Source of the DNA: Aphanocapsa sp. GSE-SYN-MK-11-07L
GTDB lineage: Bacteria; Cyanobacteriota; Cyanobacteriia; Thermosynechococcales; Thermosynechococcaceae
DNA: 45,247 bases
Reading direction: 5' to 3'
NCBI GenBank assembly: GCA_019359715.1
Contig: JAHHGS010000101.1
Coordinates: 1-45,247, forward strand
Position 1 is the first letter of the stretch, and each line of letters starts with the position of its first letter. The position numbers and the translations under genes were made by a program. The notes under the pieces were generated by a model, which worked only from the letters and a program-made list of their open reading frames with translations, did not search any database and was not told the origin of the DNA. Below, in pieces: positions 5,061 through 38,595 of this stretch.

Positions 5061-5633
5061 GTGGAAGACTGGCTAGAAATTGGGACGGTGGTGTCAGCCC
5101 AAGGCTTAAAGGGCGAGGTGCGCGTTTATCCCGACTCAGATTTTCCAGAGCGATTTGAAATTCCTGGTCAGCGCTGGCTCTGGCACAAAGGGGCAGAGCA
5201 GCCAGAAGCCAGAGAGTTAGTGCACGGACGCTACCTGAGCGGCAAGGGCTTATACGTGCTCAAATTTGCCGATGTAAACACCCGTGAGCAAGCAGAGGCA
5301 ATGAAGGGGTATCGACTTGTGGTGTCCCAAGCCGATCGCCTACCGTTGGCAGCAGGAGAATTTCATCTCCATGACCTGATTGGGCTGGCAGTGTTTCAAC
5401 AGGTTAGTCAGGAACAGGTTGGCACAGTGATTGGTGTTGCAACAGCAGGTAATGATTTATTAGAAGTTCAACTATCGCCCGCTCAATCTAAGGTTTTCAT
5501 CCCTCTTGTGCGAGAAATTGTGCCAACTGTAGACCTTGCCAATGGTCGAATAGAAATTACTCCCCCGGCGGGTTTATTACCAGAGTCTTCTCAATCTGTG
5601 GTCAGCGAGCCAGCCAAAGCTGAGGATGCTTAA
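5061..5633 (+). CDS. rimM: Ribosome maturation factor RimM
   Basis: RimM assists assembly of the 30S subunit head and binds S19. The N-terminal RimM barrel starts at DWLEIGTVVSAQGLKGEVRVYPDSDFPERF. The C-terminal PRC-barrel part contains HDLIGLAVF and LVREIVPTVDLANGRIEI. I chose the GTG at 5061 rather than the TTG at 5016: an AGGAG lies five bases upstream of it and family members begin at this point. About 15 residues after the PRC barrel are a variable tail. Confidence 0.9.
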   Translation: MEDWLEIGTVVSAQGLKGEVRVYPDSDFPERFEIPGQRWLWHKGAEQPEARELVHGRYLSGKGLYVLKFADVNTREQAEAMKGYRLVVSQADRLPLAAGEFHLHDLIGLAVFQQVSQEQVGTVIGVATAGNDLLEVQLSPAQSKVFIPLVREIVPTVDLANGRIEITPPAGLLPESSQSVVSEPAKAEDA

Positions 5634-33949: not shown

Positions 33950-34720
33950 ATGATTGACCGTCTTGTCTTGATTACCGGAGCCAGCAGTGGGATTGGTTTA
34001 GCCTGCGCTCAGACCTTTGCCCAAGCTGGGGCGAGGCTAATTTTGGCAGCGCGCCGTAGCGATCGCCTGCAAGCCTTGGCGGCTGACCTAAAGGCGAAAT
34101 TTGGCACGGCAACCCATGTCTTAAAGCTAGATGTCTGCGATCGCTCAGCCGTTGAAGCTTGCTTACAAAGCTTGCCCTCCGATTGGTCTGGGGTAGACGT
34201 TTTGGTTAACAATGCGGGGCTGAGCCGCGGGCTTGATCGCTTCCAGACGGCCGAGGTGCAGGACTGGGAAGAAATGATCGACACCAATGTTAAAGGCTTG
34301 CTCTACGTTACCCGGACGCTGCTGCCCGGCATGATTGAGCGAGGGCAGGGGCATATTATCAATATCGGCTCGATCGCGGGGCACCAAACCTATCCCAAAG
34401 GCAATGTTTACTGCGCCACTAAAGCCGCCGTCCGAGCGATTACAGAGGGGCTAAAGCTTGATTTACTCGGTACGCCGATTCGAGTCAGCACGGTTGATCC
34501 GGGCCTGGTTGAAACTGAATTTAGTCAAGTCCGCTTCCACGGTGACGCTGAGCGGGCGCAGTCTGTTTATGCCGGGTTGACGCCATTGACCCCAGCCGAC
34601 GTGGCTGATGTGGTGCTGTTCTGCGCCACCCGCCCGGTTCACGTCAACATTAACGAAGTCGTGCTGATGCCGACTGATCAAGCCAGTGCGACCCAGGTAA
34701 ACCGTCAGAATTTAAGCTAG
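33950..34720 (+). CDS. SDR-family NAD(P)-dependent oxidoreductase
   Basis: 256 residues. Cofactor loop TGASSGIGLA and NNAG (VDVLVNNAGLS). The active site is Ser in NIGSIAG and YxxxK as YCATK. C-terminal PGLVETEFSQVRF is typical of the YdfG/serine-dehydrogenase group, so NADP with hydroxy-acid or amino-acid alcohols as substrate is likely but unproved. The ATG at 33950 is chosen over a TTG two codons earlier. Its last 36 codons are part of a segment duplicated at 37594-37703. Confidence 0.93.
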   Translation: MIDRLVLITGASSGIGLACAQTFAQAGARLILAARRSDRLQALAADLKAKFGTATHVLKLDVCDRSAVEACLQSLPSDWSGVDVLVNNAGLSRGLDRFQTAEVQDWEEMIDTNVKGLLYVTRTLLPGMIERGQGHIINIGSIAGHQTYPKGNVYCATKAAVRAITEGLKLDLLGTPIRVSTVDPGLVETEFSQVRFHGDAERAQSVYAGLTPLTPADVADVVLFCATRPVHVNINEVVLMPTDQASATQVNRQNLS

Positions 34721-34800
34721 CCAGATTTATCAACCTCGCCGTATCCAATCAAGTGGAGCTGCAAATTGGGCAGGCAAAGGATCGGCAGGCAATCAACCAT
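34611..34800. repeat. Duplicated SDR/cyanophycinase junction, copy A
   Basis: This segment is repeated in direct orientation at 37594-37790. Copy A contains the true end of the SDR gene plus a remnant of the cyanophycinase 3' end. By eye, 14 mismatches occur in the first 94 aligned bases, followed by a one-base gap and, near 34770, a short deletion relative to copy B. Confidence 0.85.
34717..34800 (-). pseudogene. Cyanophycinase 3' remnant
   Basis: On the minus strand this reads LPNLQLHLIGYGEV and then stops, matching the LPNLQLHLIGHGEV tail of the intact cyanophycinase at 37657-38595. Only about 27 codons remain. It marks the ancestral convergent arrangement of the two genes. Confidence 0.8.
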
Positions 34801-34958: not shown

Positions 34959-35627
34959 ATGAATCGAATTCTAATTGCTGAAGACGAACCCCGAATTGCT
35001 GCCTTTGTTGAGAAAGGGCTGCAAGCACACGGCTTTGCGGTCTCCGTTGCCACAGACTCCCAACAGACTTTACTAATAGTCGAAGCTAGCACCTTTGATT
35101 TACTGATTCTCGATCTAGGGCTACCTGGTCAAGATGGTTTGCAAGTCTTAACACAACTGCGAGGAGAGGGAGAAACACTGCCAATCATCATTCTTTCTGC
35201 CCGCGACGATATCCGAGATAAAGTAGCGGGATTTGAAAGGGGTGCAGACGATTATGTGACCAAACCCTTTCGGTTTGAAGAACTGTTGATTCGGATAAAA
35301 GCAAGGTTGCGGAATCGCAATTCGGCGAACCGACAGATCGAGGCAATACTCCAGAACGGCAATCTGCTCCTAGATTTGCGAACCCGCAAAGTAAAGGTTG
35401 ATGGGTGCTGGATGGAGTTGCCCTGCCGCGAGTTTAATCTGGCAGAAACGTTCTTTCGGCATCCCGGACAAGTATTAAGCCGAGAGCAATTGTTAGACCG
35501 AGTTTGGGGCTATGCCTATGACCCAGGCTCTAATATTGTGGATGTTTACGTGAGTTATCTGCGGAAGAAATTAGGCAACAACCTAATCGAAACAGTTCGA
35601 GGTATGGGCTATCGGTTTAAAACCTGA
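34959..35627 (+). CDS. OmpR-family response regulator, orphaned
   Basis: 222 residues. Receiver domain with acidic pocket AEDE, phosphorylatable Asp52 (LLILDLGLPG) and conserved Lys (VTKPFRFEE), then a winged-helix trans_reg_C domain (DRVWGYAYDPGSNIVDVYVSYLRKKLG). A close relative of the regulator at 41306. The kinase before it is only a fragment, so it may respond to another kinase. Its last 45 bp overlap the 3' end of the convergent JmjC gene. Confidence 0.93.
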   Translation: MNRILIAEDEPRIAAFVEKGLQAHGFAVSVATDSQQTLLIVEASTFDLLILDLGLPGQDGLQVLTQLRGEGETLPIIILSARDDIRDKVAGFERGADDYVTKPFRFEELLIRIKARLRNRNSANRQIEAILQNGNLLLDLRTRKVKVDGCWMELPCREFNLAETFFRHPGQVLSREQLLDRVWGYAYDPGSNIVDVYVSYLRKKLGNNLIETVRGMGYRFKT

Positions 35628-36821
35628 GATATTCTCAAAAATTTCTGAACAGTGAAGATCACAGTCGGTTTTGACTTGTAAAACTCCTTCAAAGACAAGG
35701 TGTTTAAGGAGGGGTTCAATATCAACCTCTAAGTCCAAATCGGGTGCCCAATCTGCAAGATCAATTAAGCAAAACTCATCTTGATTGAATATATTTTCTA
35801 TCAGCGCTTCTGGAATGCCTTTTAGATCAAATTGTTTTGAGCCAATTTTTACTTGATAGTGTTGATCGTTGAGTTGTTTGACGCGAATCCGATGGAGAGG
35901 AGACCAAGCATACCGAGTCATTAGCAGATTAGGAAAAATGCCAGCTCCAATCTGAGCAGGTAAGCTAACTGGAAGCGGCGGATAGTTACGATGGCCAAGC
36001 TGCTGGATAAATCTGTGCATAAATTCTGGCTGATCTAGAACCTCGATTAGATGCTGTCGCAGCGAGTTTAATTGCTGTTCTAGAGCGTTCTGATTATTTT
36101 CTTCGATCGCAGGTAATCTTACGCGCCAAGCCTCACTATTTTGCAGTTCATTTTTCAGCCAATCAAGCCAGTCCAGCCCTGTTTGAGCCTCAATTCCAAC
36201 TGTAAGATGAAGCGATGGCTGTTCGCAGGCGATCGCATAGTGCCAATGTCCGCGTGGGATATAAAGTAAATCTCCCGCCTGAAGGACGCACTCTAAATAG
36301 GGGGGCTGCTGTGGTTTAAGCTCTTCAGATGAGGGCATATTTCGAGTTGGATCAGGCACCGTTTCTTGATAAACGAACCATTTCTTCTCGCCCTCAATTT
36401 GTAAAATCAGCACATCGTGCGTATCGTAGTGACAATCAAATCCTTGTTGTGATGCGGGTGAGCAATATAAGTTGACATGAGTTTCATAGCCAAAGTCATC
36501 TCGAAGATGTCCCGCAAGTTTCGCAACACTTGGAATCCGGTGATGGACACCATTCACAACTAATGTGGCTCCATCCCGCAAGCGATCGCCCCAGTCTCGC
36601 GGATCACGCGAGTGCGGTAACGACTTACCCTCTTTTGAAAAGCGTAAGTCAGATTCTGGAAGCTTGTGATAATTCAACAGATAATTGAGAGCATCCCACG
36701 AAAACAAAGAGTGAAATTTGCCAGGATCATCAGCAGCAATATGAAGTCCCTTATGTTGCCAATCCTGGTTCAAAAACTGTTCCGCTGGGTATGGCCAGAG
36801 TAGCTGTTGCAAAATGTTCAT
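35583..36821 (-). CDS. JmjC (ROXA/YcfD-like) 2-oxoglutarate oxygenase
   Basis: 412 residues. N-terminal cupin/JmjC domain with iron ligands His131-x-Asp133 (FDCHYDTHDVLILQ) and a distal His in YIPRGHWHYA (192/194), the spacing found in E. coli YcfD and human MINA53/NO66. An alpha-helical dimerisation region and winged-helix-like C-terminus follow, as in ROXA enzymes. These hydroxylate His or Arg in ribosomal proteins; other JmjC enzymes hydroxylate Asn or Asp. It lies 220 bp downstream of, and on the same strand as, a peptide rich in Asn and Asp, its possible substrate. Confidence 0.85.
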   Translation of the reverse strand: MNILQQLLWPYPAEQFLNQDWQHKGLHIAADDPGKFHSLFSWDALNYLLNYHKLPESDLRFSKEGKSLPHSRDPRDWGDRLRDGATLVVNGVHHRIPSVAKLAGHLRDDFGYETHVNLYCSPASQQGFDCHYDTHDVLILQIEGEKKWFVYQETVPDPTRNMPSSEELKPQQPPYLECVLQAGDLLYIPRGHWHYAIACEQPSLHLTVGIEAQTGLDWLDWLKNELQNSEAWRVRLPAIEENNQNALEQQLNSLRQHLIEVLDQPEFMHRFIQQLGHRNYPPLPVSLPAQIGAGIFPNLLMTRYAWSPLHRIRVKQLNDQHYQVKIGSKQFDLKGIPEALIENIFNQDEFCLIDLADWAPDLDLEVDIEPLLKHLVFEGVLQVKTDCDLHCSEIFENISGFKPIAHTSNCFD

Positions 36822-36917
36822 AACGGGCTGACATTTGTTGTTCTTGCAATATTCAGAAGTCGGTTTGGGCTACAAAAAGTTAAGAAAGGGAGCCACAAAA
36901 AAGCGGTCATCACTTAA

Positions 36918-36933
36918 ACAGCAAAGGTGCTGT
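36918..36933 (-). other. Inverted repeat between peptide gene and JmjC gene
   Basis: ACAGCA-AAGG-TGCTGT is a perfect 6-4-6 repeat, with a weak T-rich run on the minus-strand side. It could attenuate transcription from the peptide gene into the hydroxylase gene. A 12-bp perfect palindrome CACTGATCAGTG also lies at 36998-37009, just after the peptide stop. Confidence 0.35.
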
Positions 36934-37041
36934 AATTACTTAAACCGTTAATGCTAGCCCCCTGACTAATCCTCGCTCAGAGAGAATCGCTTCATTACAC
37001 TGATCAGTGATCATCATTTAGTCATGACAGCATCACAAGCT

Positions 37042-37362
37042 CTAATCGTCATCAGAGCTATTGCTGTTGCTATTGCTACTGCTGTTGCTGCTGTCATTAC
37101 TGCTGCTATTGCTACTGCTGTTGCTGCTGTCATTACTGCTGCTATTGCTGCTGTCGTTGCTGCTGCTGTTGCTGCTGCTATTGCCAGCAATGAGTTGTTT
37201 ATAAGAGTCACGCCCTTCTAAATCAACTACTTTTAGTTGGATTACTGATTGCCGAGCTGTTTCAGATTGCTCTGAAAGTACAGCAGCCGATGCATTGCCG
37301 ATTGGCAGTAATGCTCCGATACCGGCGCTCATGAGTAAGCCAAGAATTACCTTAGGGTTCAT
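37042..37362 (-). CDS. Secreted-looking peptide with tetrad N-[S/D]-S-S repeats
   Basis: 106 residues. Residues 1-26 form a signal-peptide-like leader (MNPKVILGLLMSAGIGALLP, then IGNASA-A). Residues 27-60 are a polar linker ending DSYKQLIAG. From residue 61 nearly every fourth residue is Asn in a tetrad of Ser or Asp (NSSS, NDSS), ending SSDDD. A strong GGAGG ribosome site lies six bases before the ATG. Codons of the repeat differ at synonymous sites (AAT/AAC, AGC/AGT), suggesting selection on the protein. Function unknown; a modified-peptide precursor is a possibility because a JmjC hydroxylase follows. Confidence 0.75.
   Translation of the reverse strand: MNPKVILGLLMSAGIGALLPIGNASAAVLSEQSETARQSVIQLKVVDLEGRDSYKQLIAGNSSSNSSSNDSSNSSSNDSSNSSSNSSSNDSSNSSSNSNSNSSDDD
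37069..37190 (-). repeat. 36-bp tandem repeat coding the N/S tract
   Basis: Two identical 36-bp copies (37069-37104 and 37105-37140) and a diverged third stretch to about 37190. The length is a multiple of 12, so the tetrad reading is preserved when units are gained or lost. It is inside the peptide gene and is not a CRISPR array, as there are no spacers. Confidence 0.85.
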
Positions 37363-37593: not shown

Positions 37594-37790
37594 TCATTAT
37601 GGTCTGTGCCACCCGTCCGGCTCAGAACACCATTAACAAAGTTGTGCGGGTGCCGACTAATCAAGCCAGCGCGACGCAGGTAAACCGTCAGAATTTATGT
37701 TGACCGCATCGTAAACCTCGCCGTGCCCAATCAGGTGAAGCTGCAAGTTGGGTAAGCTCAAAGGCAACGGATTGGCCGGCAATGAACCAT
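37594..37790. repeat. Duplicated SDR/cyanophycinase junction, copy B
   Basis: Direct-orientation counterpart of 34611-34800. It holds the true 3' end of cyanophycinase and a remnant of the SDR 3' end. The two copies bracket about 2.8 kb that contains the kinase fragment, response regulator, JmjC gene and peptide gene. Confidence 0.85.
37598..37703 (+). pseudogene. SDR oxidoreductase 3' remnant
   Basis: The + strand reads VCATRPAQNTINKVVRVPTNQ and QASATQVNRQNL, matching the C-terminus of the intact SDR at 33950-34720 (FCATRPVHVNINEVVLMPTDQ and QASATQVNRQNL). It lacks everything upstream and overlaps the cyanophycinase 3' end on the other strand. Confidence 0.8.
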
Positions 37791-38595
37791 CCTTGCTCCA
37801 AAGCTGAGTGGACTGGAGAATCGTTACAACCCCTTTACCCAGCACCTGGATTTGCCCTTGCCCATTCACCAGCGCACAGGTGTCTTCGTCGATGCCAATC
37901 CCGATCGCGTGCGGATGGGGGGCGATCGCGCTCATCAGCCGGGCCAAGCGATTGCGGTTATGAAAATGCTGGTCAACAATTGCTCCCGGTAAAATGCCAA
38001 ACCCAGTTTCTAAGTCCACCAGACCATGATTAGGCGCTTCGCCACTGCCGCCACCCGTGATCATGTGGTGCCCCAAGACTGCTGCCCCGGCGCTAGTGCC
38101 AGCCAGGACAATTCGCCCCTGATAAACCCGCTGACGGAGCTGCTCGGCAAAAGGGGTGCTGCCCAGGAATCCACAGAGGCGACTTTGGTCGCCACCGGAG
38201 ATAAACACACCTGTACAATCCTCTAGCTGCTGAATCAAGTCAGCCGATTCACCCCCTGCGCGATCGCCCACCAACAGCACTTGAGTAGACTCTGCCCCCA
38301 AGTCGGCAAACAGTCCTCCATAAATTTGCCCCTTGATCTCAGGCGTTTCCGAGGCCATTGGAATCAGCAAAATTTTGGCTTGTTGACCGCCAGCTAATTT
38401 AACGAAGGTGCGGAGAATCAACCGATCTTGAATCTTGTCTTCGGCCCCGCCAATCGCCATTACAGTCAATTTGTCAGAGCGGCGCTCTTGCCCGAATAAA
38501 TCAAATCTCGGTTTGAGGAGGGGAGTGTAGCAAGCAGACAGCTTAGGGTTGGGGGAGGAGGCTTCTAAAAGAGTGCTGGGGGTGCGATCGCTCAT
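37657..38595 (-). CDS. cphB: Cyanophycinase
   Basis: Serine-type exopeptidase that cuts the storage polymer cyanophycin to Asp-Arg dipeptides. 312 residues. The nucleophile elbow is LAGTSAGAAVLG, with FISGGDQSRLCGF before it and DQHFHNRNRLARL and IGIGIDEDTCALV after it. The last 17 residues (after HLIGHGEV) are read through the antisense of the SDR remnant; in copy A the corresponding frame stops right after GEVDKSG, so this tail is probably an acquired extension. No cyanophycin synthetase gene is in the window. Confidence 0.95.
   Translation of the reverse strand: MSDRTPSTLLEASSPNPKLSACYTPLLKPRFDLFGQERRSDKLTVMAIGGAEDKIQDRLILRTFVKLAGGQQAKILLIPMASETPEIKGQIYGGLFADLGAESTQVLLVGDRAGGESADLIQQLEDCTGVFISGGDQSRLCGFLGSTPFAEQLRQRVYQGRIVLAGTSAGAAVLGHHMITGGGSGEAPNHGLVDLETGFGILPGAIVDQHFHNRNRLARLMSAIAPHPHAIGIGIDEDTCALVNGQGQIQVLGKGVVTILQSTQLWSKDGSLPANPLPLSLPNLQLHLIGHGEVYDAVNINSDGLPASRWLD

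Follow-up and report, generated by a model that had tools for sequence, protein, structure and literature searches.

An Asn/Ser repeat peptide gene paired with a JmjC_2 oxygenase gene in cyanobacteria: a probable two-gene RiPP-like system

The protein hydroxylases NO66, MINA53 and ROXA of the JmjC superfamily act on ribosomal proteins. In RiPP pathways, the JmjC proteins BipG and BpmG hydroxylate ornithine during the formation of biphenomycins, according to two reports (PMC12707348, PMC12257519). Fusions of an RRE with a JmjC (PF08007) domain have been found by structure-based mining, and bacterial homologs of about 30% identity were located in RiPP-like contexts (PMC12710340). In the available portion of that article the fusions come from fish and algae, and neither a precursor or motif nor a cyanobacterial pair is named; the word stem "cyanobacteri" is absent from its main text. 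Bufferins and DUF2282 precursors are MNIO-modified ribosomal peptides that combine a Sec signal peptide with a variable part, and in the case of bufferins the modifying enzyme is an iron-dependent oxidative one (PMC12452194, PMC12710340). RiPP pathways and JmjC peptide hydroxylases are thus known, and the pairing, motif and secreted repeat core described below were not found in the open-licence papers searched. For the cyanobacterial JmjC-peptide pair, no report was found in open-licence PubMed Central papers, and it may have been described elsewhere.

The window analysed here is a stretch of 45,247 nucleotides from Aphanocapsa sp. GSE-SYN-MK-11-07L, in which a gene for a short peptide lies directly upstream of a JmjC_2 gene on the same strand. 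The features are as follows.

34617..34775, no strand assigned: left copy of a flanking direct repeat, made up of SDR and cyanophycinase gene ends
35583..36821, minus strand: JmjC_2 (PF08007) 2-oxoglutarate/Fe(II) oxygenase gene, 412 aa (Pfam E 9.6e-29)
35637..35975, minus strand: C-terminal domain of the JmjC protein, for which low-confidence models predict a beta-beta-beta-alpha order resembling a winged helix or RRE
36414..36431, minus strand: motif HYDTHD, residues 131-136, containing the HxD part of the metal-binding triad
37042..37362, minus strand: gene for a 106-aa precursor-like peptide with signal peptide, motif and Asn/Ser/Asp tail (open reading frame; homologs with conserved leader)
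37045..37182, minus strand: Asn/Ser/Asp tail, residues 61-106, proposed core (sequence and tail comparison)
37068..37149, no strand assigned: exact 36-bp tandem repeat (2.3 units), within the 12-bp array 37057-37184
37219..37245, minus strand: conserved motif VIQLKVVDL, proposed recognition strand (leave-one-out profile score)
37285..37362, minus strand: predicted Sec-type signal peptide, residues 1-26 (MNPK...ASA/A), read from sequence and hydropathy
37600..37757, no strand assigned: right copy of the flanking direct repeat

The proposed system resembles BipG/BpmG in that a JmjC-domain oxygenase would act on a residue of a ribosomal precursor peptide. Biphenomycin clusters contain many enzymes, whereas the window pair has a single oxygenase, and its peptide carries a signal peptide and a long repeat tail. 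As in the RRE-JmjC fusions, the protein belongs to PF08007, and its RRE-like domain is predicted at low confidence. Bufferins depend on another enzyme superfamily (MNIO), while the neighbour here is a JmjC_2 protein. Bufferin chemistry acts on Cys, and the whole window peptide contains no Cys. NO66, MINA53 and ROXA are the nearest solved structures and have the HxD...H triad, but in the window a dedicated peptide gene lies upstream.

The signal-peptide region of the peptide reached a maximum 15-residue hydropathy of 2.38, whereas none of the five short precursors computed exceeded 0.20. The motif scored 21.7 in the leave-one-out profile against a shuffle maximum of 10.2; its family consensus is approximately IxVEVxEL, and it stands just ahead of a variable Asn/Asp-rich tail. 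The dN/dS of the leader was 0.17 both between the window and locus L007 (Cyanobacteria bacterium RU_5_0, a metagenome-assembled genome) and between the window and L068, and this conservation indicates that the peptide gene is real. The window peptide had no Pfam or NCBIfam match over cut-off (0 NCBIfam families), the matches of seven relatives in these collections were weak and all under cut-offs, and no peptide match was found in the plasmid collection. Two repeat-peptide families were considered and rejected: the rSAM-associated Gly-rich repeat peptides (GrrA), which gave no NCBIfam match with the window peptide, and the Ser-Asp repeat adhesins, which the window peptide did not match and for which L068 gave no more than 20.5 bits where the cut-offs are near 1000 or higher.

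For the JmjC protein, the PF08007 match was 99.9 bits with a cut-off of 22. The third metal ligand lies in GHWH at about residues 191-194, as read off the alignment to solved structures, so the HxD...H site is present. The closest solved structures by sequence are NO66 (E 1e-18), MINA53, YxbC and a ROXA-type L16 arginine hydroxylase, and since these are protein hydroxylases they were counted in favour of the proposed two-gene system. Single-sequence and two-sequence structure models bearing on the C-terminal domain had mean pLDDT values of 35 and 41, which is low confidence, and displayed a strand-strand-strand-helix order. In hhalign, the comparison with PqqD gave a probability of 15.7 and covered the helical half alone (17 sequences on the PqqD side, with L086 left out because the locus is cut), and no RRE came up for this domain when PDB sequences and Pfam were searched with profiles. 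The JmjC gene had a dN/dS of 0.17 in both comparisons (window vs L007 and vs L068), the same as the leader, and dS between the window and L007 was similar for leader and JmjC gene (0.65 and 0.76), which shows similar purifying selection on the two genes. The JmjC gene looks broken in L069, L039, L042 and L052, where stops or frameshifts cut its reading frame, either through decay or through assembly error. No relative of the JmjC protein was found in viral contigs.

A peptide profile search in 388 genomes of the class gave 15 matches including the window's own, of which 13 were retained; L021 (a 759-aa ORF) and L022 (stops inside) were dropped as noise on reading the ORFs. Twelve of the 13 are followed immediately by a JmjC_2 gene in the same orientation, and the 13th is cut by the contig end. 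The converse search for JmjC genes at E 1e-20 or better matched 36 of the 388 genomes, and the loci were split into 27 close (24 genomes) and 14 distant. A small related ORF was present upstream in 24 of the 27 close loci, in three cases (L032, L039, L040) judged related by eye only; no such peptide was found upstream in the remaining close loci L038, L045 and L047. The motif scored at least 15.3 upstream of 21 of the 27 close loci, while none of the 14 distant ones exceeded 4.3. The profile covered a 17-residue stretch and was trained without the test sequence and without any sequence at least 60% identical to it; the training segments were chosen by pattern from the same loci, with the positives L042 and L051 lying outside the training set. 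Each of the 21 positives scored above every one of 200 shuffles made from the region upstream of it. The top shuffle of any close locus was 15.4 (L039, itself a miss), so the weakest positives, L067 (15.3) and L050 (15.4), do not exceed the shuffles of all loci. The pairing of the peptide gene with the JmjC gene in many cyanobacteria is well supported by these counts. In the plasmid collection, 99 records contain a JmjC relative. Three of these loci were opened, two from Streptomyces and one from Nostoc, and in each the JmjC gene is preceded by an ORF of 43-49 aa whose tail is rich in Asp/Asn; these were hand-picked and are a lead, not a count.

Two kinds of precursor share the one motif. The secreted precursors have tails of Asn-Ser, Asn-Asp-Arg or other repeats, and the short precursors, without signal peptide, have a tail end of DVDxDGxDxxNE or another Asp-Gly-rich sequence. 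On a JmjC tree of 29 of the 41 loci (22 of 27 close and a selection of 7 from the 14 distant; loci that were broken or short were omitted), the precursor kinds were clustered, with 5 changes compared with 14.3 in shuffles. The window forms a group with L007 and L068 (support 100/99), members of two further families. The tail of L034 (genome G176) is a six-residue RRVYSP repeat, and some Asn/Ser tails among L067, L068 and L069 end Trp-rich (FWWWRRWWR, NYWWWFW, GRRRWWLDDDDD), while the window tail ends in DDD.

The repeat is probably the core of a precursor peptide belonging to a RiPP-like system of two genes, in which the motif would be recognised by the JmjC protein and Asn/Asp of the tail would be hydroxylated by it. 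A short precursor gene, a conserved leader, a variable core and an adjacent gene for a candidate modifying enzyme are all present. The motif would be bound as a strand by the winged-helix-like C-terminal domain of the JmjC protein, the JmjC domain would hydroxylate the Asn and/or Asp side chains of the tail, and the modified peptide would exit via the Sec route. Asn/Asp is taken as the best common target because every tail (24 of 24) holds Asn or Asp, with Asp absent from L067 and Asn absent from L046, L048 and L050. Arg is abundant in many tails and could be a target in those other members; the window tail contains no Arg. In a casual reading of the neighbours, no protease or transporter gene was noticed beside the window pair. 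In L055, L058, L056, L057 and L045, other JmjC genes adjoin genes that look RiPP-related; judged by eye, these encode leader peptides of the Nif11 type and proteins resembling LanM and SagB.

A wider reading is put forward tentatively, as a real possibility on which we would place somewhat less weight than on the two-gene system itself: the pairs may form a patchy, widespread and apparently unnamed RiPP class of cyanobacteria, perhaps also of Streptomyces, in which a single JmjC enzyme with a fused leader-binding domain reads an IxVEVxEL strand and polyhydroxylates Asn/Asp in Sec-exported repeat peptides or short cytosolic DVDxDG-tail peptides, with the exported ones growing and shrinking by 12-bp tetrads. 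If this is true, one enzyme and one peptide would constitute a minimal hydroxylation pathway readily tested in E. coli, and the repeat would be a natural substrate series differing mainly in site number. The JmjC/RRE fusions, known from animals and algae with no precursor reported, would then gain a bacterial precursor and motif, and one branch of JmjC oxygenases would gain a defined substrate.

The strongest alternative, which we regard as unlikely, is that the tail is an ordinary low-complexity disordered segment of a surface linker or matrix and that the JmjC protein acts elsewhere, for example on a ribosomal protein. The Asn/Ser tails do resemble the Ser-Asp regions of MSCRAMM adhesins in composition, as seen in the weak NCBIfam matches of L068 far under the cut-offs, and ribosomal proteins are the substrates of the nearest solved JmjC relatives, NO66, MINA53 and ROXA. 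Against this reading stand the conservation of the pair across several families, the motif common to non-secreted precursors with very different tails, and the finding of this motif at none of the 14 distant JmjC loci.

At the DNA level, Tandem Repeats Finder reported an array of period 36 with 3.5 copies (score 187, 37060-37184) and one of period 12 with 10.7 copies (37057-37184), of which the 36-bp period is the stronger; the runner-up array anywhere else in the window scored 96. The array corresponds approximately to codons 60-102 of the 106-aa minus-strand ORF, in which the Asn/Ser/Asp tract occupies codons 61-106. A run of 46 bp from 37068 recurs unchanged at an offset of 36 bp, which makes 82 bp (37068-37149, 2.3 units) exactly periodic; a diverged unit follows. 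In codon register, the units 75-86 and 87-98 are identical, and comparison of unit 63-74 with these two shows 3 synonymous and 2 non-synonymous codon differences. The preliminary description of two identical 36-bp units and a diverged third, with unit lengths in multiples of 12 bp, was thereby borne out. When synonymous codons were redealt within the tract with the amino acids kept, none of 2000 shuffles reached the 46-bp run (shuffle mean 15.5), indicating recent DNA duplication on top of the amino-acid pattern. This test was first run at seven spacings and rerun at every multiple of 3 up to 90. The window repeat is therefore a DNA-level duplication and not merely a repeated amino-acid pattern.

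Among six relatives including the window, the Asn/Ser tails have 46, 43, 25, 43, 56 and 50 residues (range 25-56), and the repeat unit as well as the tail length differs among species; L012/L070 (G312) was left out of the tract lengths because its tail, read there in a poly-Gln frame, runs off the contig, either through a true shift or as an assembly end. Significant DNA-level duplications were found in four of the six tails, with spacings of 36 bp in the window, 60 in L068, 12/24/48 in L067 and 36 in L039, all of which are multiples of 12 bp. The tails of L007 and L069 had no significant duplication at any multiple of 3 up to 90. The frame-safe gain and loss of units that had been proposed is thus supported between species, where tract lengths differ and duplication spacings are all multiples of 12. 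In-frame tandem duplication of 12n-bp blocks would change tail length, so that modification sites would be gained or lost with the leader untouched. Family-level searches for close species pairs with Asn/Ser tails gained no new locus, and the genus was represented by a single genome, so that all length comparisons are between species.

The comparison of synonymous and non-synonymous change between units, suggested beforehand as a check, gave different outcomes in different tails. In the window, the Ser codons of the repeat are all AGY and the units differ by the 3 and 2 codons given above; over all tetrad pairs, which are not independent, 54 synonymous and 30 non-synonymous codon differences were counted, with 13.3 of 120 sites synonymous. 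Here the earlier argument from synonymous variation is weak, and selection on the amino-acid pattern of the window tail is correspondingly weakly supported. The otherwise regular Asn-Ser tails of L067 and L039 combine AGY with TCN codons for serine. Because such a mixture cannot arise by copying one Asn-Ser unit, the argument holds and selection on the amino-acid pattern of these two tails is well supported by codon usage.

A second alternative, which is quite improbable, is that the repeat is a length-switching contingency locus, in which slippage varies the peptide length between cells of one strain and the variability itself is selected. The exact 36-bp units suggest recent duplication, and four of the six tracts have significant duplications of their own. 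Nevertheless, the length differences were seen between species only, L007 and L069 have no significant duplication in their DNA, and units in multiples of 3 allow no on/off switching; phase variation by frameshift was ruled out because the unit lengths are divisible by three. That the ORF is spurious, a mere open frame in a simple repeat, is barely credible: other open frames do span the array (plus strand 37024-37221 and 37061-37204, minus strand 37014-37211), but the leader is conserved in other families with its low dN/dS, and serine codon families are mixed in the relatives.

Regarding the genomic setting of the proposed two-gene system, the response-regulator, JmjC and peptide genes form a 3-kb block between the flanking direct repeats, which are 85% identical over 98 bp and 84% over 44 bp at a spacing of about 2983 bp. 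The block looks as if it had been inserted with a duplicated junction. Within the window's own family (29 genomes), the window's peptide match is the sole convincing one; two others (E 0.025 and 0.046) were read as noise, as was L021 (E 0.002, same family). The patchy distribution suggests that the peptide-JmjC pair spread by horizontal transfer, with which the direct repeats are consistent.

In addition, the cyanophycinase gene at 37657-38595 has a second copy in the same genome (G000:C65:60696-61463) that is 57% identical. The window (36913-36950) and L007 (about 5440-5475) also share a small inverted repeat, CAGCA-N4-TGCTG with TTTAA on its flanks, in the interval that separates the peptide gene from the JmjC gene.
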